A stretch of 33,902 nt of DNA from Caryophanales bacterium (GTDB lineage: Bacteria; Bacillota; Bacilli; Paenibacillales; CANHCR01). Under the pieces are notes generated by a model that was not told the DNA's origin, searched no databases, and worked only from the letters and a program-made list of their open reading frames with translations. The stretch covers positions 1 to 33,902 of the forward strand of contig CANHCR010000026.1 of NCBI GenBank assembly GCA_947459205.1. Direction: 5' to 3'. This document shows, in pieces, positions 7,756 to 20,231 of the stretch. Each line of letters starts with the position of its first letter. Position 1 is the first letter of the stretch. The translations under genes were made by a program, and so were the position numbers.

Positions 7756-7783
7756 TTGCATTGCCGACAATTTCAGTTATAAT
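7756..7783 (+). promoter_or_regulatory. Sigma-A promoter of the SOS-box gene
   Basis: A -35 TTGCAT (7756-7761) and a perfect -10 TATAAT (7778-7783) are separated by 16 nt. The predicted start (about 7790) falls inside the LexA box. Confidence 0.65.
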
Positions 7784-7785
7784 AA

Positions 7786-7797
7786 GAACATACGTTC
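7786..7797 (+). promoter_or_regulatory. LexA/DinR (SOS) box
   Basis: GAACATACGTTC matches the Gram-positive SOS box core GAAC-RNRY-GTTC at every position; the flanking bases are A and T rather than C and G. It begins 2 nt after the -10 and covers the predicted start site, where LexA binding blocks transcription. The gene at 7816 is therefore predicted to be DNA-damage inducible. Confidence 0.7.
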
Positions 7798-7815
7798 TCA
7801 TTTGGAGGTTGAAAC

Positions 7816-8232
7816 ATGGGCGAACGGATGTATTTCAATAAAATACCTGAATACCAGGAGTTGTTTGCGCTCAAATTGGTGTTGCTCATCCCCATCATAC
7901 TCTCGATTTTTAGCAAAGATCAGAAAATCATCGGACAGCTACCCATCAAGACTAAAGAGCCTTACGTCGATTTATTGCAGATGGCGATGGATAATGCTCA
8001 TAAGGAATTGTCTAAGCAAGAGCAACGTTTGAAGCAGTTGCGACTAGAAATCATTGAGCACGACTTGTCCAAACAGGGGTTGAGTTGTTTATTCAGTTGC
8101 AATGGCTACAGTCATCAATTCCATATGCAGAGCGACTTGCTGCGTGCAGAATTGATGATGTGGATGAAGCATTTCCTCGGGCAAGACGTGCTTAAATATA
8201 TCAAGACGACCAATCCCGACCATCTGCAATGA
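7816..8232 (+). CDS. Unknown 138-aa protein under a predicted SOS box
   Basis: I do not recognise this family. The protein has a hydrophobic stretch near the N-terminus (about residues 17-33, LFALKLVLLIPIILSIF), which may be a membrane segment or a buried helix. A strongly helical, charged part (about 59-82, KELSKQEQRLKQLR) could form a coiled coil. The C-terminal half is rich in Met and His. GGAGG 7 nt upstream fixes ATG 7816. It is monocistronic, converging on the rhomboid gene. The SOS box suggests a damage-response role; a small division inhibitor is one possibility, but no LysM or YneA-like motif is present. Confidence 0.75.
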   Translation: MGERMYFNKIPEYQELFALKLVLLIPIILSIFSKDQKIIGQLPIKTKEPYVDLLQMAMDNAHKELSKQEQRLKQLRLEIIEHDLSKQGLSCLFSCNGYSHQFHMQSDLLRAELMMWMKHFLGQDVLKYIKTTNPDHLQ

Positions 8233-10385: not shown

Positions 10386-10601
10386 TTATACTGTCAAACC
10401 ACGCACTTGATCAGCGGTCAAACCTGTTAAATCGGCAATTCTCTCCAATGTAAATGTTCCGTCGGCAAGCAACCGTCTTGCCAACGCGATTTGACTTTCT
10501 AGTTTGCCCTCTAGTAGTGCCTGTTCCCGTACCTCGCGAAACGTGCGTTGATAATATGTCTCCACTGTTTCAGACACTTTTCCTTCTTCTCCACGCTTCA
10601 T
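10386..10601 (-). CDS. Possible internally initiated Rpn C-terminal protein (71 aa)
   Basis: Inside the frameshifted Rpn gene, the downstream frame holds ATG 10601 preceded, 9-10 nt upstream, by GAGGTG, a six-base match to the anti-Shine-Dalgarno sequence. The product would be a 71-aa helical, charged protein starting MKRGEEGKVSE and ending LTGLTADQVRGLTV. In E. coli Rpn genes an internal start is known to make a short C-terminal partner of the nuclease. By analogy this fragment could still be made although the long form is broken. This is inference; the fragment may be debris. Confidence 0.4.
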   Translation of the reverse strand: MKRGEEGKVSETVETYYQRTFREVREQALLEGKLESQIALARRLLADGTFTLERIADLTGLTADQVRGLTV

Positions 10602-11317
10602 TTGCTTAAACACCTCTGCGATTTCGACTTTATAAACCAATCCATCAAAGCATCGTATTCATCATCCGACAGCTTATCAAGGTATCGTGGCAACTCTTTC
10701 AAACGACGAATCGTTTCAATGTGATGAACTTCTAATACTTGCTCAATCCAAAACACTTTACTCATGCAACTACGCATCGACTGAAGTTCGTCGGCAGGCA
10801 ACCGATGTACATCGAGAAGTTGCACGAGTTGATGTTTAATAACAGACTCATCACCCCATTCTGCAGTTATGTCTCTCGACAACGAAATTCGCTCATGCCA
10901 ACCCCGCCATGGATACAAACCGTTATAGAGCACCACTCTTTTCACTGTTGGCAATCGCAGTTGGTCGGGACGAGGCGCTTCAGCAAGATCTAATCGCCAA
11001 GCATCAATTTTTGACTGCATTGCCTGAAGTTCATATTCAAGAAAACGCAAATCAATAATCGGATCTTCGGTTCGCTGAAATTCCACCATCACTAACCATT
11101 CTCTTGTAATGCCATTCAATTCGATAACGAAAAGTACATATTCCGTCTCCAATGAGGTGACATCCAGCACGGTCGATTCCCGCGGTAAGCCCATGAAATC
11201 ATACAAAAAACCAAGGAAGACTTGAAGTTTACGAAACAATCTTTTGTACCCTTTGTCGTGCACTTGGTACAACTTTTCCGGGGCATCTTCTGTCGCGTCA
11301 AAAACGTAAGTTTGCAA
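10386..11317 (-). pseudogene. Rpn-type PD-(D/E)XK nuclease/transposase gene, frameshifted
   Basis: Rpn proteins are PD-(D/E)XK nucleases, historically labelled putative transposases and linked to RecA-independent recombination and, for some, phage defence. The N-terminal frame (down to the stop at 10598) begins FDATEDAPEKLYQVHDKGYK and has the nuclease-like WLVMVEFQ (E-x-Q). Near 10635 the downstream frame must be entered by a -1 shift: that frame continues as VYKVEIAEVFKQMKRGEEGK and ends with a LARRLLADGTF...ADLTGLT motif shared with the intact Rpn gene at 30351. No slippery heptamer is visible, so a mutational frameshift is most likely. A TTG at 11317 is the favoured start (AGGGG 8 nt upstream), just after the preceding gene. 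Confidence 0.75.
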
Positions 11318-11330
11318 GCTAACAGCCCCT

Positions 11331-12107
11331 CTAATATGAAGTATACAATATTTCATTCAGTTTTGAAGTCGATAATGCGTATAATGTATTGGTCCAGATA
11401 CCAACTGATTCTGCTCGCATACAAGTAATTAAACCTTCATCAATCACAATATTTCCATACTCCGCATCGTTTCTACCACTTTGATCAGAGTTGGGAAAGG
11501 AAAATTCGAATTCATCGCCGACCGCGAGTTGTAGATCTCGCTGCAGTTGTTCCATCATCACCGACTGTTTCCAACGTTTGAAGGATGTCTCATCCGAGAG
11601 CAGTTTCACTTTCGTTTGCTGAAATAGTTCAGCCCGGTTTCCACTCAACCAACGATTTTCTGCAGCGTAGTACATCGTCAGCGATGATCTGCTCGTTAAT
11701 TGATATACATTGCCCGCTCGATCAGTAGCAGAGAAGTTTCGTTTCGCTTGCACATTGCGTTTCGGCTCACCGTATGCGCCATTACCGGCAGCCACCTCAT
11801 GAAAAGGTACCATGGTGTATCCATCGTGTTCAACGATGACCATTAACGCAAGATGCTTCTGAGCACGAACTGCAATTGAACCAAAATTGAGGTTTGACAG
11901 GCTGCGGTAAAAACGATCAATCACCGCAGCTTCCCCCAACCCTTGTGACATAACAAACGACGCATCTTCTGTCGCTGATTGTAACATGCGCTCAAGCCAA
12001 ATCATTGACTGTTCGTCGCGAGACCATTGTTGCAATTGCCAATCTAACTGCAATTGAAACGGACTAATGATAATGACCCAAAGCAATGCGAAATCAGTGA
12101 GGCGCAT
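11331..12107 (-). CDS. Unknown membrane-anchored protein of the Tad-type operon (258 aa)
   Basis: No family recognised. The N-terminus is a single hydrophobic segment (about residues 5-20, FALLWVIIISPFQLQL) and the rest is predicted outside the membrane. It resembles the small minor-pilin or TadE/TadG-like proteins that follow the platform gene in Tad loci, but no sequence motif proves it. ATG 12107 lies 14 nt inside the previous gene, so translation is coupled. It is the last clear structural gene before the Rpn pseudogene. Confidence 0.7.
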   Translation of the reverse strand: MRLTDFALLWVIIISPFQLQLDWQLQQWSRDEQSMIWLERMLQSATEDASFVMSQGLGEAAVIDRFYRSLSNLNFGSIAVRAQKHLALMVIVEHDGYTMVPFHEVAAGNGAYGEPKRNVQAKRNFSATDRAGNVYQLTSRSSLTMYYAAENRWLSGNRAELFQQTKVKLLSDETSFKRWKQSVMMEQLQRDLQLAVGDEFEFSFPNSDQSGRNDAEYGNIVIDEGLITCMRAESVGIWTNTLYALSTSKLNEILYTSY

Positions 12108-12781: not shown

Positions 12782-13243
12782 TTAACTCGTTTTCTGAGTT
12801 AAGACAATGGCACGCACAACACGGTTGCTATCATAAATCAGTTGCGATTTAAATTGAGCAATTGGATTGACATAATCGACATGTGCATCGTCATATGCGT
12901 TGCTGAGATCGGTGACCCCTGCGGCGCCCACCACACCAAGTGAACTCACTACTTTGCCGTACCAAATACCTGTCGTATTTTTACCAGTTTTGACACTTAC
13001 GCCGAACTGCGGATTGGTGGCATATTTGCGGATGGCATTCATTACTTGACTGCCAGACACCGTTTTTTGGTCATAAGCCGAAAATTGCACGGTCGCCATA
13101 TCGTTTTGCAAGTCTGAGAATCCTTTTTGCGCTTGCGAAGCCGCCTCTTGTCCGGATTGAAATACGATTACCCCCAACGTGATAATGGCTATGGTGATCA
13201 ACACGGCCGCAGCGATCATTAAAGCTTTAACTCCATTTTCCAT
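12782..13243 (-). CDS. Pilin-like protein of the Tad-type operon (153 aa)
   Basis: The protein starts MENGVKALMIAAAVLITIAI: a seven-residue polar leader followed by a long hydrophobic helix (about 8-28), and then a soluble domain of about 120 residues with QAQKGFSDLQND and a GKNTTGIWYG segment. This is the plan of a type IV pilin-like subunit placed directly after the TadBC platform, so it is the best candidate for the major exported subunit. It lacks the canonical Flp prepilin cleavage pattern (G before a +5 Glu), so the processing route is unclear. GAGGAGAG 9 nt upstream supports ATG 13243, the strongest such site in this part of the operon. Confidence 0.65.
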   Translation of the reverse strand: MENGVKALMIAAAVLITIAIITLGVIVFQSGQEAASQAQKGFSDLQNDMATVQFSAYDQKTVSGSQVMNAIRKYATNPQFGVSVKTGKNTTGIWYGKVVSSLGVVGAAGVTDLSNAYDDAHVDYVNPIAQFKSQLIYDSNRVVRAIVLTQKTS

Positions 13244-13258
13244 GAATAAATCTCTCCT

Positions 13259-14989
13259 CTAAAGTGTTTGAAATTGTTGATAATACGTTTGCATCTGCTG
13301 CATACCGACGAACATCATGGGAATGAGCAAATAAATAAAAATGACGGCATAGAGTGGCACAAAACCAATTAATTTGCCCCACGCTGATTTGGCTGCGATA
13401 TTTTTTTCAAACTGTAACTTACGTTGTTCGTGAATAAACGCTCGGTCGCTATTTAGATCATCGAATGCAACACGCAAGTCGACGCGCTCAGCCGCTTCAA
13501 TCAACTGTTCGACGATTTGTCGGAATGGTTCAAAAGCAACTTGGTCGCGCAGTTCTTCAAGCGCTTGCCGTCCACCCGCACCGAACGAGAGGAGACACTG
13601 TTGCAACGGTGTCTGGAAATGCTGGGCAAAACGCAACATCCACTCGAGTACGTGTTCGACGTTCATCCGCTCCATCGGCGTTAAAATAGTGAGTAAGGTC
13701 TCAAATTGTTCGACTTCACCGGCAAGCGCGAATTTACGCATTCCTCTTCGAAACATCAACAAAAACAACGGAAGCAAATAGGCGAAACAGACGATGAAGC
13801 AACAAGCGATAAACTGCAGGACTGTAAATGATGAGAAGGATACAAGACATACAGCGGTGGATAGTAGACCTGTAAGTATTGCGTAAATAAGGCGACGCAA
13901 ATAAAAAAGTTCGACTTCTGCTTGCTCGCCGAGCAAAATCAACTGACTGCGCATCCACTCATATTTGGCCGCTCCCGGATTCGGCATCCAGCGAATCAGA
14001 ACAACACGTATCCATCGCGAGCGAAACAATCGTTTTTCTAAAGACATAGATGGCGATGATCCAGCGCTCTCGCCCCACTCCAATACGTGTAACTGTCGCA
14101 CCAATACAAAGCATAAAAAACTCGTCACATAAATGGCGATTTCGCACAAAAATCCATGCCCGCTCGCATAGAACTCTCCCATCCCTGGGAAACTGTCACT
14201 TGCCCAGCGAGCAAGTGGCGCCAGCGACAACAAAGGTAAGACAGTGATGGTTTGCAAACTTTGAAGCAGAAAACTCAAGCGCTGTCTACGCACGTGCTCC
14301 ATCTCGATTTCCCCAATAAGACCGGCCAAAGATTTTTGAAAGAGTGAACCATCGCTTAATGTTCGGTCACCAAATTCAAAAACCAAGTAAGCAACGCCAG
14401 CCAATGCCTGCAAATATTTGTTAGGCGCCGTTTCGTAATACTCACCGATGGCCGTTTGCGGATGATGAGAGGCAAGACACTCCGCTATTTTTAATGCATG
14501 CGTTTTTGCTACATTCGGCGCCTCTGCTGCTGCCTCGTAAATCGCTTCATACACCATTTGATGACGATGATAGCGCCTGCGAATTTGTGCAATCAATCCA
14601 GTGAGCTGCCTAAGTAACCTCATCTCTAATCGACGAATCAAGATATCGGACAAAAACCCGTAAATATAGACCGTACTGAACAGCAGCAGCATCAATGAAA
14701 ACACATCGCGGTTTATGCTAAGGACTACCACCCATATCGTCAAAAAACTAAGGATAACGAGCAAAAAGTAGCGGACTGACTGAAGCCGGATACTATGTTC
14801 GTCGTCTGCTTGAATCATCCGGATGCGGTGCTGGATATCCAGTAGAATCGAACGAAGCAACGGACGGCGCACACAAAACTCATATAAGACCATCAAGAAG
14901 CGATACAGATGTTGACGCCATGCGATTCGCTCTGTCAGGCCCTCGCGGCTAGCTCGTCTCAATCGTTTCGTTCGAAACATTCGTTTCAT
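13259..14989 (-). CDS. Tad-type membrane platform, TadB-TadC fusion
   Basis: A 576-aa polytopic protein. Membrane segments appear near residues 70-115, 240-300, 365-412 and 540-565. Two GspF-like (T2SSF) halves are visible: one around residues 115-300 and one around 415-570, the second ending with the hydrophobic VPLYAVIFIYLLIPMMFVGM. Standard Tad systems split these into TadB and TadC (about 300 aa each), so this looks like a natural fusion. It would form the inner platform driven by the TadA ATPase encoded just upstream. ATG 14989 follows GAGGTAGGTG and lies 41 nt inside the TadA gene. Confidence 0.75.
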   Translation of the reverse strand: MKRMFRTKRLRRASREGLTERIAWRQHLYRFLMVLYEFCVRRPLLRSILLDIQHRIRMIQADDEHSIRLQSVRYFLLVILSFLTIWVVVLSINRDVFSLMLLLFSTVYIYGFLSDILIRRLEMRLLRQLTGLIAQIRRRYHRHQMVYEAIYEAAAEAPNVAKTHALKIAECLASHHPQTAIGEYYETAPNKYLQALAGVAYLVFEFGDRTLSDGSLFQKSLAGLIGEIEMEHVRRQRLSFLLQSLQTITVLPLLSLAPLARWASDSFPGMGEFYASGHGFLCEIAIYVTSFLCFVLVRQLHVLEWGESAGSSPSMSLEKRLFRSRWIRVVLIRWMPNPGAAKYEWMRSQLILLGEQAEVELFYLRRLIYAILTGLLSTAVCLVSFSSFTVLQFIACCFIVCFAYLLPLFLLMFRRGMRKFALAGEVEQFETLLTILTPMERMNVEHVLEWMLRFAQHFQTPLQQCLLSFGAGGRQALEELRDQVAFEPFRQIVEQLIEAAERVDLRVAFDDLNSDRAFIHEQRKLQFEKNIAAKSAWGKLIGFVPLYAVIFIYLLIPMMFVGMQQMQTYYQQFQTL

Positions 14990-16733
14990 CACCTACCTCA
15001 TCGCCCCAATATTGATTGCAAAATTGGATAAATTGCAGGCGATCGGCAGCATTCATCTGTTCAAGCATTGCCCGTTTCGATGCCAAAGTGAGCGGTTTTC
15101 CAGGGATATAAGTTTGATTGCGCCAAATCGCTACATCGCGGTCGACAAACGAATATGAACCTTCACCAGTTAGTGGTACACATTCCGTCACTCGCTCGAT
15201 GTATCGACGCCCATCGATGTCGCGCCGCAAATGAACATTAAAATGGAGCACCGACACTACCTGCTGTTCCGCCATCTTTTCCTGTGAAAAGACACCCGTT
15301 TTCAGCAATGAATTGCGCAGCGAAAAGATCAAATCGGAAAACGTTTTGGCGTGATGCGTAAACAAAGTAAACAAACTGGCGACCTGTGCCGCTTGAATCA
15401 TCCACGCCGCCACGGCATCGCTCGCGACCTCGCCGATAATGTTGACTGTACCGTCCGTCTTTTTTTGCACATCTAAGCCTTGCTGACCGCTAATTTCTTC
15501 CGTCTCGCGAAAAGACAAGATGTTTCGCTCCGGGTAGAGTGAGCGTAACCGCAATTCAAACGCCATTTCCTGCACACGGATGTTGTATGCCTCATCAATC
15601 TGCTCGACAAGTGCCATCAATAGCGTCGTTTTACCGCTGCCTTGTGCACCTGTCACTGCGGTGACACGTGCCCCTTTGATGAGGTAGGTCAGCAATTGAA
15701 TGAGGAAAGTTGCCTCCTCATCACGGAGCAACTGTTCAAGCGAAACATGACGAGTGTCGAATTTTCGCACAAAAAACGCCCACGATTCGGAAAACGGCGG
15801 CCTCACAACGACCACCCGACTGCCGTCTGCCATTTGGTTCACTTTGTACCCATTGCGCTCGGACAATTGTCCAGGGTAATTGAATTTGTAGATGTTTTGA
15901 CAAACGCGCTTCAACTCCTCCGCCGATCCAAATGACAGGCATTGCATGTGAATCGATTTGCCGCGAAAGAAAATCCAAATACTGTCGTAGTCGTAGGCAC
16001 CGCGGCGCAATCCTTCCTCATCGCTCGAACGATCGCCATAAAATGAGGGCATGCCAGACACGCCACCAGACACGCCGTCAATCGCCATATCACGAAGTTC
16101 ATCGACCGCGCCAAATCCGAGCATTTGCCGATACAATGTTTGTGTGATGAGCATCAATTGATCGCTAGGAGTCATATGGGGCCGTTCGCGTGTGTATAGA
16201 CGGCGAACATCATCGGCCGTCAATTTGTTACTAGTCAACGTCATTTTATCTAGCATCACACTGAGCGCCTGCATGCCGTGCTTCTTTTTGAAGTTGTACA
16301 ATAAAATATCAAACTGTATCTGATCAGTGAGTCGCTCGCGCATGGAGGTAGGCAGAAACCGTTGGTACGTTTCATCATCCCAGCGAAAGGCATGCATCAA
16401 CTCATCGAAAATAAACTGCAACACAAATTGTTTATCTTGTACATTACCGCCCGTACAACCGCTAATCGCTTTTTTTATCGCGGTTCGCCGGTTACGAAGC
16501 CGTTGGTACTCTTCCTCGGAAACACCGAACGTTCGCAAATCGGCATAGAGAGTATCCTGCAAGACGGTTCTTAAGTGGACTTTCAATTGCGTCCAATCGT
16601 GAGCGGTCTTCGTGGACGGAGACACGGTTTTCGGCCGCTTACTGCGCACGGTGAACATTCTCAGAAAAATATAGAGGGCAATGAATGTGGCAAACAAGCA
16701 AATCAGCAAAAAATGAAGGGATGGCGTCAACAA
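14949..16733 (-). CDS. tadA: TadA/CpaF-type secretion ATPase
   Basis: A 594-aa ATPase that would power pilus assembly or secretion. Unusually, residues 5-25 form an N-terminal membrane segment. The CpaF-like N-domain spans about 50-330. The motor domain has Walker A GAQGSGKTT (362-370), a modified Asp box VQEMAFEL (387-394), Walker B NIIGEVA (431-437) and a His box THHAKT (459-464). In canonical CpaF the Walker B is followed by Arg (GEVR); here it is Ala. The start is TTG 16733 with AAGGTG upstream, overlapping the TadZ-like gene by 7 nt. Confidence 0.85.
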   Translation of the reverse strand: MLTPSLHFLLICLFATFIALYIFLRMFTVRSKRPKTVSPSTKTAHDWTQLKVHLRTVLQDTLYADLRTFGVSEEEYQRLRNRRTAIKKAISGCTGGNVQDKQFVLQFIFDELMHAFRWDDETYQRFLPTSMRERLTDQIQFDILLYNFKKKHGMQALSVMLDKMTLTSNKLTADDVRRLYTRERPHMTPSDQLMLITQTLYRQMLGFGAVDELRDMAIDGVSGGVSGMPSFYGDRSSDEEGLRRGAYDYDSIWIFFRGKSIHMQCLSFGSAEELKRVCQNIYKFNYPGQLSERNGYKVNQMADGSRVVVVRPPFSESWAFFVRKFDTRHVSLEQLLRDEEATFLIQLLTYLIKGARVTAVTGAQGSGKTTLLMALVEQIDEAYNIRVQEMAFELRLRSLYPERNILSFRETEEISGQQGLDVQKKTDGTVNIIGEVASDAVAAWMIQAAQVASLFTLFTHHAKTFSDLIFSLRNSLLKTGVFSQEKMAEQQVVSVLHFNVHLRRDIDGRRYIERVTECVPLTGEGSYSFVDRDVAIWRNQTYIPGKPLTLASKRAMLEQMNAADRLQFIQFCNQYWGDEVGDETNVSNETIETS

Positions 16734-17542
16734 CTGGGCACCTTATCAAATAGCGCTTGTACACATGTTCTAAATTCTAGCAAACAACGCGCCAGTAGCC
16801 CCCGGTCCGTTCGTTCCGAGCGAAATAAATGTCTCAAAAAGAGTTCGGCAAACTCACCCTCGTTTGCAGCATTTCGTAATTCCGTACAATACGGAATCGC
16901 AAACATCGGATAGCGCGCTCCATATATTTTTTTCAGTTGTTGTGCGTTCAAGCGTGCAGATGCGTCATAATCGGCGACAATAAATAGCGTCCGTTCCGGC
17001 CACTGATGTTGTTTGCTATGAAATTTTTCGAAAAAATGACGCAGTCGGTGCTCGTTTTGTTCCAAGCAGACGACCAGTACATCGACTTCATCAATCGTCG
17101 CAGAGTATTGCGGATCTACGACAACATCAGGCAAACGAATGAGCGATGCGGGATATTCTGCTCGTAATTGGCGGAGCAACTGGCGAATAACGGCAGGGCG
17201 TAATGACGGCAACTGATGCAGACGACTTTCCGGTAACCAATCGAGCCGACCTTTTAAAATCGATTGGACATAGTCGCGAACATGCACTTGAGAAACATAG
17301 CCATGTGATAGCGCTCGAAGCAGGCCGTCAACCCCTGCACGTCCGGCAAAACTTTCTGGCAAGTGAGCGAACGACGGCATGCGCCGCGCAAGCATTGCCT
17401 CCATGCTCGTTGGTGAATCGCACAAATGGCTTAGCAATACGTGTTCATTATTGTTGAGTGCTACGGTCAGTGCGCAACCCAGCTGAATCGAATCAACTGC
17501 GGGCATGCCGCGATACATACCTAAAAAACCGATGACTGTCAT
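16727..17542 (-). CDS. TadZ/CpaE-like localisation protein with degenerate P-loop
   Basis: A 271-aa protein. The N-terminus reads MTVIGFLGMYRGMPAVDS, aligning by pattern with the MinD/ParA-type starts of TadZ proteins, where a Gly-rich loop with Lys and Ser/Thr would follow the first strand. Here that loop has no Lys. A later strand TIDEVDVLVVCLEQN fits the fold. In Tad systems TadZ proteins place the machine at a site in the cell. Position between the kinase and TadA genes (ATGA overlap with the kinase gene, 7-nt overlap with tadA) supports the assignment. It probably does not hydrolyse ATP. Confidence 0.6.
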   Translation of the reverse strand: MTVIGFLGMYRGMPAVDSIQLGCALTVALNNNEHVLLSHLCDSPTSMEAMLARRMPSFAHLPESFAGRAGVDGLLRALSHGYVSQVHVRDYVQSILKGRLDWLPESRLHQLPSLRPAVIRQLLRQLRAEYPASLIRLPDVVVDPQYSATIDEVDVLVVCLEQNEHRLRHFFEKFHSKQHQWPERTLFIVADYDASARLNAQQLKKIYGARYPMFAIPYCTELRNAANEGEFAELFLRHLFRSERTDRGLLARCLLEFRTCVQALFDKVPSC

Positions 17543-19026
17543 GAGCGAATCCTCTCTTTTTTTCGATTAGCGATCCATTTTTGCAACCATGCGCCAAGCC
17601 GACCGCCCGAGCCATCGGCGCTCGCTGTTTCTAATCCTAGCAACTTGCTGACAAACGAAACGACCTCTTCCCCCGGTTGAAGCGGATTCGGACAAAACGG
17701 TGCATCATGAATCTGCGCATCCGTTAAATGTACTCTGCTAAGCGCAGTCGCAGTCTGTTGCGAAGCGGCTAGCATCAGCAATACTCTCATTCGTTCTTGC
17801 AAAGATGGCGGATACTCGCTGTATTGCATATTCTCACTGTGCGCCAGACTCACACCGAGCAAACCGCCAAACGCCGTCACCACTGGTACATCCGCACGCG
17901 CGAATTCACCCTCCTGCGCTACACTCAACTCGCTGCCAAAATCAAACACCAAATCGTCGTAACCAGCATAGAGCCAAACCGCCATATCCAAACTTTGCAC
18001 GTCCAAAAAGTAGTCGACACCAAATTTATGCGCAGTCGCTCGTTGCTCACGTAACATACGACCGAGAATGGGGTAGTTATTCTGTTCAATGAGCGCAACA
18101 CGTCGTCCGGCATGCGCCAAACTATGAGCAATCATCAGCGCGCCATGTGTGCAACCAGAACGTCCTGCGATTCCTCTGCAAACGATGACTTTCGTCGCAC
18201 TTTTCCTTCTGCTCTCGGGAAAACTGTGTAGCGGGAAGCGTAGTTTTTGCTCGATGACACGCAATGCTTCCATCAACACTGAAGCGGAAGCAGGACGCAC
18301 TGTTGGATCAGGATGTAGCAGTTTTTCTAGCAGTTGCACAACAAACGCGGGAACATGTTGCAGATCGATCGAATCATCCGTGCCATGAAACCCGGCGAAA
18401 TTGCCGCCACTAACCAAGTAATACATCAGCGCACCGAGTGAATATAAATCCGAACGTGCGTCACAAGATTTTCCCGCCCATTGTTCAGGCGAGGCGAAAC
18501 CGGCCGAGGCAAACGGTAACGTTTCACCCATCCGCATGGATGACGATTGCCGCGCAATCCCGAAATCAATCAATTTGACGCGCCACCGTTCATCGACCAT
18601 CAGATTGTCCGGTTTTAAATCGCGATGAACAATCGCAGGTTCCACCTGTTCATGCATATAGACATACAAATCACACACTTGGATTGCAATCTGGATGACC
18701 GTTTGTAGTTCAATCGAGCGACCGAGACGCTCGAACTTCGCACGCAACGTTTCACCGACAACATAGTCCATCACGATGCACAGTTGGTTTTGTTGGTGCC
18801 GTGCGAACACATCAACTACACGCGGTATGTGCGGATGATCAAGGCTACTCAACATGCGTGCCTCCGCAAGTTGCGTTTGAATGTCAGCACCTTCCACCAC
18901 TTTCACTGCCCATCGCTTGCCGTTTAATTTGCAATCCTCCGCCAAGTAGACGGTTCCCATACTGCCTTTGCCGATCACTTTCAACAAGCGGTAGCGCTCA
19001 TTCAACAATTCGGAAGATAGGTTCAC
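17539..19026 (-). CDS. Serine/threonine protein kinase fused to a MinD-like domain
   Basis: The 495-aa protein has an N-terminal Hanks-type kinase (about 10-265) with GKGSMGTV (19-26), Lys42 in WAVKVVE, HRDLKPDN (134-141) and DFG (154-156), so it should be active. There is no C-terminal membrane helix or PASTA repeat, unlike PrkC. From about residue 272 a second domain begins KVIVCRGIAGRSGCTHGALM, then RRVALIEQN, resembling a MinD/ParA ATPase whose P-loop has lost its Lys. The kinase sits between the FHA gene (GTGA overlap) and the TadZ-like gene (ATGA overlap). This suggests it phosphorylates Tad components read by the FHA protein. Confidence 0.88.
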   Translation of the reverse strand: MNLSSELLNERYRLLKVIGKGSMGTVYLAEDCKLNGKRWAVKVVEGADIQTQLAEARMLSSLDHPHIPRVVDVFARHQQNQLCIVMDYVVGETLRAKFERLGRSIELQTVIQIAIQVCDLYVYMHEQVEPAIVHRDLKPDNLMVDERWRVKLIDFGIARQSSSMRMGETLPFASAGFASPEQWAGKSCDARSDLYSLGALMYYLVSGGNFAGFHGTDDSIDLQHVPAFVVQLLEKLLHPDPTVRPASASVLMEALRVIEQKLRFPLHSFPESRRKSATKVIVCRGIAGRSGCTHGALMIAHSLAHAGRRVALIEQNNYPILGRMLREQRATAHKFGVDYFLDVQSLDMAVWLYAGYDDLVFDFGSELSVAQEGEFARADVPVVTAFGGLLGVSLAHSENMQYSEYPPSLQERMRVLLMLAASQQTATALSRVHLTDAQIHDAPFCPNPLQPGEEVVSFVSKLLGLETASADGSGGRLGAWLQKWIANRKKERIRS

Positions 19027-20231
19027 AGTTCGTCCACCTCTTGCAAAATGAATTGCGCACGACCGACAGCAAGCACATCTCCCACCATAAATGGGTGGAC
19101 TTTATACGGAATAAGCAGTTGATCATTAAGTAACGTGCCATTGCGCGAGCCCAGATCGCGAACGAAGTAGCGGCCCTCGTCGCAAGTGCATTCGACCTGC
19201 AATCTTGAAACAGAAGGTTCCGACAAAACAAAGTTCGCTACCTGCTCATCACGTCCGATGACAAACGGCCAGTGAGATAGTTCGATGCGTTCTCCGCTGT
19301 CTGGGTTGATTAGATAGGGTTGAATTTTACGTAGCGCTGGCGGACGATTGCTTAACACCACGGTGCGATGATAGTAATCATCTTCAATCGCCGGCAATGG
19401 CAGTGGCTCTACATTTTCCGCAAGCGGCAACGAAACCTGTTCAGCAATCACAGCCTCATTGGATCGCACGATAAAACTGATGGCGAACGCCAAGCAAAAT
19501 CCGCTGGAGACAAACAACAAGAATGTATCCCCTGTCCACCACCAAACGCCAAATGCACCGAGCACACCGCACGCTGTCACACTTCGAATCACGTTCGTCC
19601 ATTGTGTCGGTCGCACCAACGGCTTCACAACACTTACAGGTTCCGAACGCTCGTCCCGAACATCAAGTGTCTCAGCCGTCTCGAACACCTGACTCCATTG
19701 AAATGGCGCTCGCAATCCCACATCACCAAGCGCGTTCAGCATCGCTCTTGTCTCGTCGGCAACATACGGTCGCAACTTTTGGCAAAATGCAAGCCACTGT
19801 TCGCCCGAACGTTGTCGTTGCTTCATTTGTAGCGGCAGATGGATGAAAAAATAATGCCCGTTCGACGGCTCCACAAACACATAGTCGGGGTCAAACAAAA
19901 ACTGCTCTTCATGCAGCAAATAACTATCCGACATCTGCAATACGCGTTGCCAACTGTTTAAGAGTCGCAGTAAATCATCATGCCGCAACCGATTACTGCG
20001 CAACACCTGACTAAGCATGCGCTTGCCTTCATGAACGAAATACAGCGACACGAAACCATCGAGTTCGTCACATCGCATGTTCAGTACATGCGGAATGTCA
20101 TGCAACAACTGCATTTGAAACGCGTGGACCATCAAATCATCGCGCGAAAGCGGTCCATCTCTGCCACGCACCATCAATGATTGTCCGTATGTATCTACGA
20201 ATTCACATTCTATGTTTGCTGCAAAAATCAT
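19023..20231 (-). CDS. Membrane FHA-domain protein with N-terminal DUF6382-like domain
   Basis: The 402-aa protein has an N-terminal domain (about 1-175) like the DUF6382 part of Bacillota FHA proteins, two close membrane segments (about 215-260), and a C-terminal FHA domain (about 320-398) with FVIGRDEQVANF, SVSRLQVEC and DLGSRNGTLLND. FHA domains bind phosphothreonine; the usual SRxH motif is SRLQ here. It heads the operon directly after a sigma-A promoter and overlaps the kinase gene by 4 nt, so it is the likely membrane receptor for the kinase. TAGGAG 6 nt before ATG 20231 sets the start. Confidence 0.85.
   Translation of the reverse strand: MIFAANIECEFVDTYGQSLMVRGRDGPLSRDDLMVHAFQMQLLHDIPHVLNMRCDELDGFVSLYFVHEGKRMLSQVLRSNRLRHDDLLRLLNSWQRVLQMSDSYLLHEEQFLFDPDYVFVEPSNGHYFFIHLPLQMKQRQRSGEQWLAFCQKLRPYVADETRAMLNALGDVGLRAPFQWSQVFETAETLDVRDERSEPVSVVKPLVRPTQWTNVIRSVTACGVLGAFGVWWWTGDTFLLFVSSGFCLAFAISFIVRSNEAVIAEQVSLPLAENVEPLPLPAIEDDYYHRTVVLSNRPPALRKIQPYLINPDSGERIELSHWPFVIGRDEQVANFVLSEPSVSRLQVECTCDEGRYFVRDLGSRNGTLLNDQLLIPYKVHPFMVGDVLAVGRAQFILQEVDEL

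Follow-up and report, generated by a model that had tools for sequence, protein, structure and literature searches.

A gene on the plus strand of the window (the whole stretch of DNA analysed, 33,902 bases in length) carries a match to the LexA operator at its promoter, raising the questions of whether it belongs to the SOS regulon of this organism and what its 138-residue product does. The features of the locus are as follows.

7756-7761, + strand: −35-like TTGCAT, read from the sequence, with a 16-nt spacer to TATAAT
7778-7783, + strand: −10 TATAAT, read from the sequence, ending 2 nt before the box
7786-7797, + strand: LexA box GAACATACGTTC, an exact match to GAACNNNNGTTC, overlapping the expected transcription start and kept upstream of homologues
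7804-7808, + strand: Shine-Dalgarno GGAGG, read from the sequence
7816-8232, + strand: ORF of 138 amino acids, here assigned to the YhjD family, with ATG at 7816 and stop at 8230-8232

A LexA box over the expected transcription start

The initial annotation described a LexA box over the expected transcription start, and this description holds: the match is exact, lies between TATAAT and the ATG at 7816, and occupies about −4 to +8 relative to the expected start, which a repressor bound at 7786-7797 would cover. GAACNNNNGTTC is the Bacillus-type LexA core consensus. A pattern scan of the whole 33,902-base window returned GAACATACGTTC as its sole exact occurrence; with one mismatch allowed, 17 matches were found versus 16.4 by chance, so that within the window the exact core alone is informative. 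A strict sigma-70 scan called no promoter upstream of the 138-residue ORF, because TTGCAT is a poor −35 hexamer (3/6 identity to TTGACA); a similar TTGCAT lies ahead of the box in several homologues of the protein.

LexA boxes elsewhere in the genome

Across the genome (2.52 Mb, 73 contigs), exact GAACNNNNGTTC sites numbered 47, versus 35 for the reversed control pattern, indicating that most exact sites are chance matches and that a single exact site is weak evidence. The same counts favour a reading in which the box at 7786-7797 is itself a chance match and the gene lies outside the SOS regulon; its position over the promoter, and a conservation in two orders that is far above controls (see below), argue against this, and we consider its probability negligible.

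We examined the 46 other exact sites, filtering for those outside any open frame longer than 100 amino acids. Two such sites lie between lexA, which this genome encodes, and a YneA-like gene. A third is located 27 nt upstream of the start codon (ATG) of the genome's single Y-family polymerase gene, behind which comes a YolD gene (Pfam, 3.4e-17). The YneA-like gene is a 130-residue ORF, divergent from lexA and with a LysM domain (L005), that matches the YneA model at 5.2e-13, below the curated cut-off. Furthermore, recA has a one-mismatch box, GAATATTTGTTC, 56 nt upstream; the region upstream of uvrB is mostly off the contig. The boxes at lexA/YneA-like gene and at recA validate the motif in this organism.

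One further exact site outside frames longer than 100 amino acids has no gene after it, and an exact GAACGCTCGTTC, also outside such frames (box at 200-211 of L057, G000:C4:1-1500), stands 73 nt upstream of a gene for a LysR-family regulator. An exact GAACATTTGTTC (box at 999-1010 of L041, G000:C9:11700-13700) sits inside another open frame, 58 nt before a Transposase_31/YhgA-like ORF (Pfam, 1.5e-19), possibly a further SOS gene judging from this site; a relative of that ORF is located in the window itself (10598-11356, − strand). Another part of the window (12782-20231, − strand) holds a run of ORFs resembling, by eye, a Tad/Flp-type pilus or secretion cluster, in which a serine/threonine kinase and an FHA-like protein were likewise recognised by eye.

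Conservation of the box upstream of homologues

The initial annotation had proposed a look upstream of homologues as a check of the SOS assignment, and the result is far above controls in two orders. Among 83 distinct members from the organism's own order (identical sequences counted once; the best-scoring loci plus 40 stretches taken at about every second listed row, hence not random and mutually related), a box with at most one mismatch was present between −260 and +12 around the start in 70, and was exact in 51; an equal downstream stretch gave 8 (exact in 3) and the reversed pattern upstream gave 7 (exact in 1). For Bacillales, all 30 sampled loci (the best-scoring 30, in which the genes of L131 and L133 recur as L157 and L160) carried the box, 27 of them exactly, versus 1 for the downstream stretch and 3 for the reversed pattern.

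Thirteen of the 83 order members had no box at −260 to +12, a number that fell to seven after extension to +45; part of these seven sit behind polY, where an own box is not expected. A homologue on a Brevibacillus plasmid (27.5% identity over 66% of the query) had no box within one mismatch near the gene, which counts against universal conservation. The commonest box letters among boxed members are GAAC-A-T-A-C/T-GTTC, with which the window box agrees throughout. In 52 of 106 boxed homologues, the gap between the box and the end of a preceding TAnnnT is exactly 2 nt. Since protein identity of the order members to the window protein is 15-37%, the conserved 12-nt site does not simply reflect recent ancestry.

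The placement of the gene in the SOS regulon, as first annotated, is thus strongly supported by sequence, through the boxes at lexA, recA and the YneA-like gene and, decisively, through the conservation of the box upstream of homologues in two orders.

A widespread family related to YhjD

Profile searches (profile of 30 homologues) found the family in 287/296 genomes of the order, and a profile search of Bacillales found it in 123/150; in a sample of the phylum it was present in 8/299 genomes, three of these eight being from other orders. The window gene is the one family copy in its own genome. Searches of Pfam and NCBIfam gave chance-level matches only, both for the window protein and for the 30-member set, as did a PDB sequence search (best E 0.01); the best PDB match, a nucleotidyltransferase at that E value, was rejected as unrelated. 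A doubtful homologue in Chryseobacterium (L036, 46% over 36 residues in the genome contig scan) was set aside.

Homologues in Bacillales adjoin genes matching ComK, VTT (yhjE-like) and Peptidase_S26 (e.g., L131), a neighbourhood that we take to be the comK-yhjD-yhjE-sipV region of B. subtilis. There, yhjD is presumably a LexA-regulated gene; the LexA regulon of B. subtilis was reportedly the subject of Au et al. in 2005. Profile-profile alignment (hhalign) of the order family with the Bacillales group gave 99.5% at E 2.7e-23 over 118 columns, and the window family thus shares with YhjD, as represented by the Bacillales comK/yhjE/sip genes, its profile homology, its predicted element order and the box. 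The window protein differs from this group in being 23% identical to Bacillales member L131, in its gene neighbours, and in a first helix more hydrophobic than that of any other of the 83 order members. These comparisons suggest a place for the window gene in the YhjD family, as a stand-alone member, a link made through the locus and through the name YhjD in PMC12926913. The gene, first described as one that could not be assigned, can now be placed in a widespread, uncharacterised family, some relatives of which lie at the comK/yhjE/sip locus. The YhjD family was known before, and it is the window gene that is newly placed in it; in the parts of the literature retrieved for the family name, SOS and translesion partners, we found no work on the stand-alone family.

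Predicted fold and the hydrophobic first helix

The AlphaFold2 model of the window protein consists of two long helices, three strands and one helix (mean pLDDT 88.6), and that of a Bacillales member has the same order of elements (mean pLDDT 91.1), predicting a compact alpha/beta domain. In a fold search with the model, neither PDB nor BFVD yielded a match at E <= 0.001, so that the fold offers no clue to function; the best VIA-align score (Z 7.0, rmsd 2.3 over 68 residues) stems mainly from a helical hairpin and has little meaning. The best conserved stretch, C-R-G-Y (C-N-G-Y in the window protein), lies at the turn between strands two and three, and only its G and Y are invariant once the Bacillales members are added.

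The protein had also been called partly hydrophobic, which is correct and indeed extreme for the family: residues 15-33 have a mean Kyte-Doolittle value of 2.2, the maximum among the 83 order members (family median 1.06) and not far from the value for the hydrophobic segment in the YneA-like protein, 2.26. A value of 1.6 is reached by only 3/83 order members and 1/24 Bacillales members, so that membrane insertion is not a family trait, while the most hydrophobic first helix of 83 leaves room for a membrane role in the window copy.

This helix, together with the short length of the protein and the LexA box upstream, is what favours a small inhibitor induced by damage, as first suggested for the gene; it would act on cell division or replication, perhaps with its first helix anchored in the membrane. 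YneA is a small SOS-controlled protein, as the window protein probably is, but it has a hydrophobic segment plus LysM; a LysM match is missing from the window protein and found instead in the separate ORF at L005. The presence of that YneA-like gene beside lexA makes a division-inhibitor role less likely. In addition, the hydrophobic stretch sits in a helix of what is confidently modelled as an alpha/beta domain, strong hydrophobicity is rare in the family, and the operons of relatives point to translesion synthesis. We therefore find the inhibitor suggestion unsupported and consider it unlikely.

Gene neighbourhoods of the family

With flanks of 1.5-2 kb in view, polY was found on the same strand as the family gene in 21 of the 83 order members, a yolD gene or motif in 22, and either of the two in 25; polY or yolD did not adjoin within the flanks in 58/83 order members and 29/30 Bacillales. 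The arrangement family-polY-yolD occurs, for example, at L016, L028, L071, L090 and L120, polY-yolD-family at L031, and family-yolD with polY not in view at L080, L093, L125 and L126, and in Bacillales one locus (L169) reads box-family-polY-yolD. At L017, L018 and L025, directly behind polY, the family domain comes fused to the N-terminal motif of YolD. Tandem family genes precede polY and yolD at L068, L069 and L092, a duplication inside the same SOS operon.

The window copy is not adjacent to polY and is without a YolD-type arm, the polymerase-binding arm (WESSRMMLPEH-like) being absent from the window protein in the family alignment. The polymerase-yolD operon located elsewhere in this genome has its own LexA box, through which shared regulation would bring the partners together. 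In favour of the accessory role proposed below, the family and YolD tend to be missing together: among the 150 Bacillales genomes, the family was missing from 9/11 without YolD (kept in 2/11) and from 18/139 with YolD (Fisher p 2.4e-6, from few lineages and without ancestry correction).

YolD/YqjX (PF08863) is a small SOS-regulated partner gene of YqjW/UvrX polymerases and shares operons with the family. The window protein has no PF08863 match at E <= 1, and the best value among the 30 members is 0.24. The available part of PMC6511836 argues that YolD proteins are the counterparts of UmuD and proposes an SH3 barrel for YolD; the window protein model is not that SH3 barrel, and the window protein has no Peptidase_S24 match at E <= 1 for a comparison with UmuD.

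The accessible sections of PMC12926913 (2026) describe, as a third variant of the YqjW-YqjX-RecA complex, the YhjD of Cohnella abietis, in which a YolD-like N-terminal arm is joined to a domain unrelated to YqjX; the arm of this YhjD fusion is modelled inside the polymerase, with the fusion as a polymerase subunit. This layout (arm plus domain, with a YqjW/UvrX polymerase) fits L017, L018 and L025, the identity of the domain being judged from name and layout, and the window protein differs from it in being armless and unlinked to polY.

The operons and the shared regulation would equally fit a protein that restrains or antagonises PolY or YolD and is induced jointly with them to limit mutagenesis, for instance by competing for the polymerase. 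Since some members are fused to a polymerase-binding arm, the domain may be able to sit on the polymerase, and armless copies could act in trans; however, the operons suit a helper and a brake alike, and we regard a brake as improbable.

Stand-alone and phage-borne copies

Relatives of the protein (26-27% identity) are encoded by the Paenibacillus larvae phages Tripp, Heath, Halcyone and Scottie. In Tripp and Heath (L187:3480-3866 and L188:3480-3866), the family gene has repressor or integrase genes as neighbours and an exact box in front of it, and is possibly a lysogeny-linked SOS gene, judging from this context. In two viral contigs (L192 and L193), yolD immediately precedes the family gene, abutting or overlapping it; in L192, 2 nt separate yolD (376-711) from the family gene (714-1061), two LexA-like boxes, one of them exact, lie ahead of yolD, and no polymerase gene was found within the 3.5 kb examined. 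All 16 members of the alignment, the window protein included, match PHROG 34234, a phage protein family that carries no functional annotation.

That most copies stand alone, that those of Bacillales are mostly beside comK, and that the P. larvae phage copies follow an exact box and neighbour integrase and repressor genes would suit a general DNA-damage factor apart from the polymerase, acting for example on RecA, competence or prophage control. Such a factor leaves the repeated linkage to polY and yolD unexplained, and the comK neighbourhood is absent at the window copy; we judge this reading to have a rather low probability.

A proposed role in SOS translesion synthesis

We lean slightly towards the reading that the window gene encodes an SOS-induced accessory of the PolY2-YolD translesion system. 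What the sequence shows here is the box, the family, the conservation of the box, and the frequent polY/YolD operons of relatives; from these we infer binding by LexA, induction by damage, contact with the polymerase complex and an effect on mutagenesis. LexA would repress the gene until DNA damage activates RecA and thereby induces it. The product may then dock on the complex of the Y-family polymerase with YolD, or on RecA or the clamp nearby, and, once docked, could tune the timing at which the polymerase (YqjW/UvrX-type, with YolD) is used. The PolY2-YqjX model of B. subtilis is itself disputed: according to the available part of PMC13335488, loss of YqjX was without significant effect and no PolY2-YqjX interaction was detected.

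A more far-reaching proposal, which we make tentatively and hold to be on balance doubtful, is that the Gram-positive Pol V-like mutasome has the YhjD domain as its third component. The domain would work in cis where joined to the arm of YolD and in trans in cases like the present one, would be conserved and under LexA control in at least two orders of Bacilli, and would also be carried by phages. If this is true, the third component, as a missing factor, could explain the unclear genetics of PolY2-YqjX alone.

Through this analysis, an ORF that lacked an assignment becomes a component of SOS mutagenesis in Bacilli that can be put to the test. Its family is near-universal in the order and without a Pfam or NCBIfam model, and the accessible sections of PMC12926913 note one form of it as a polymerase subunit that arose by fusion. 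Should the stand-alone form act on PolY2-YolD, it would be a candidate controller of damage-induced mutation in Gram-positive bacteria.
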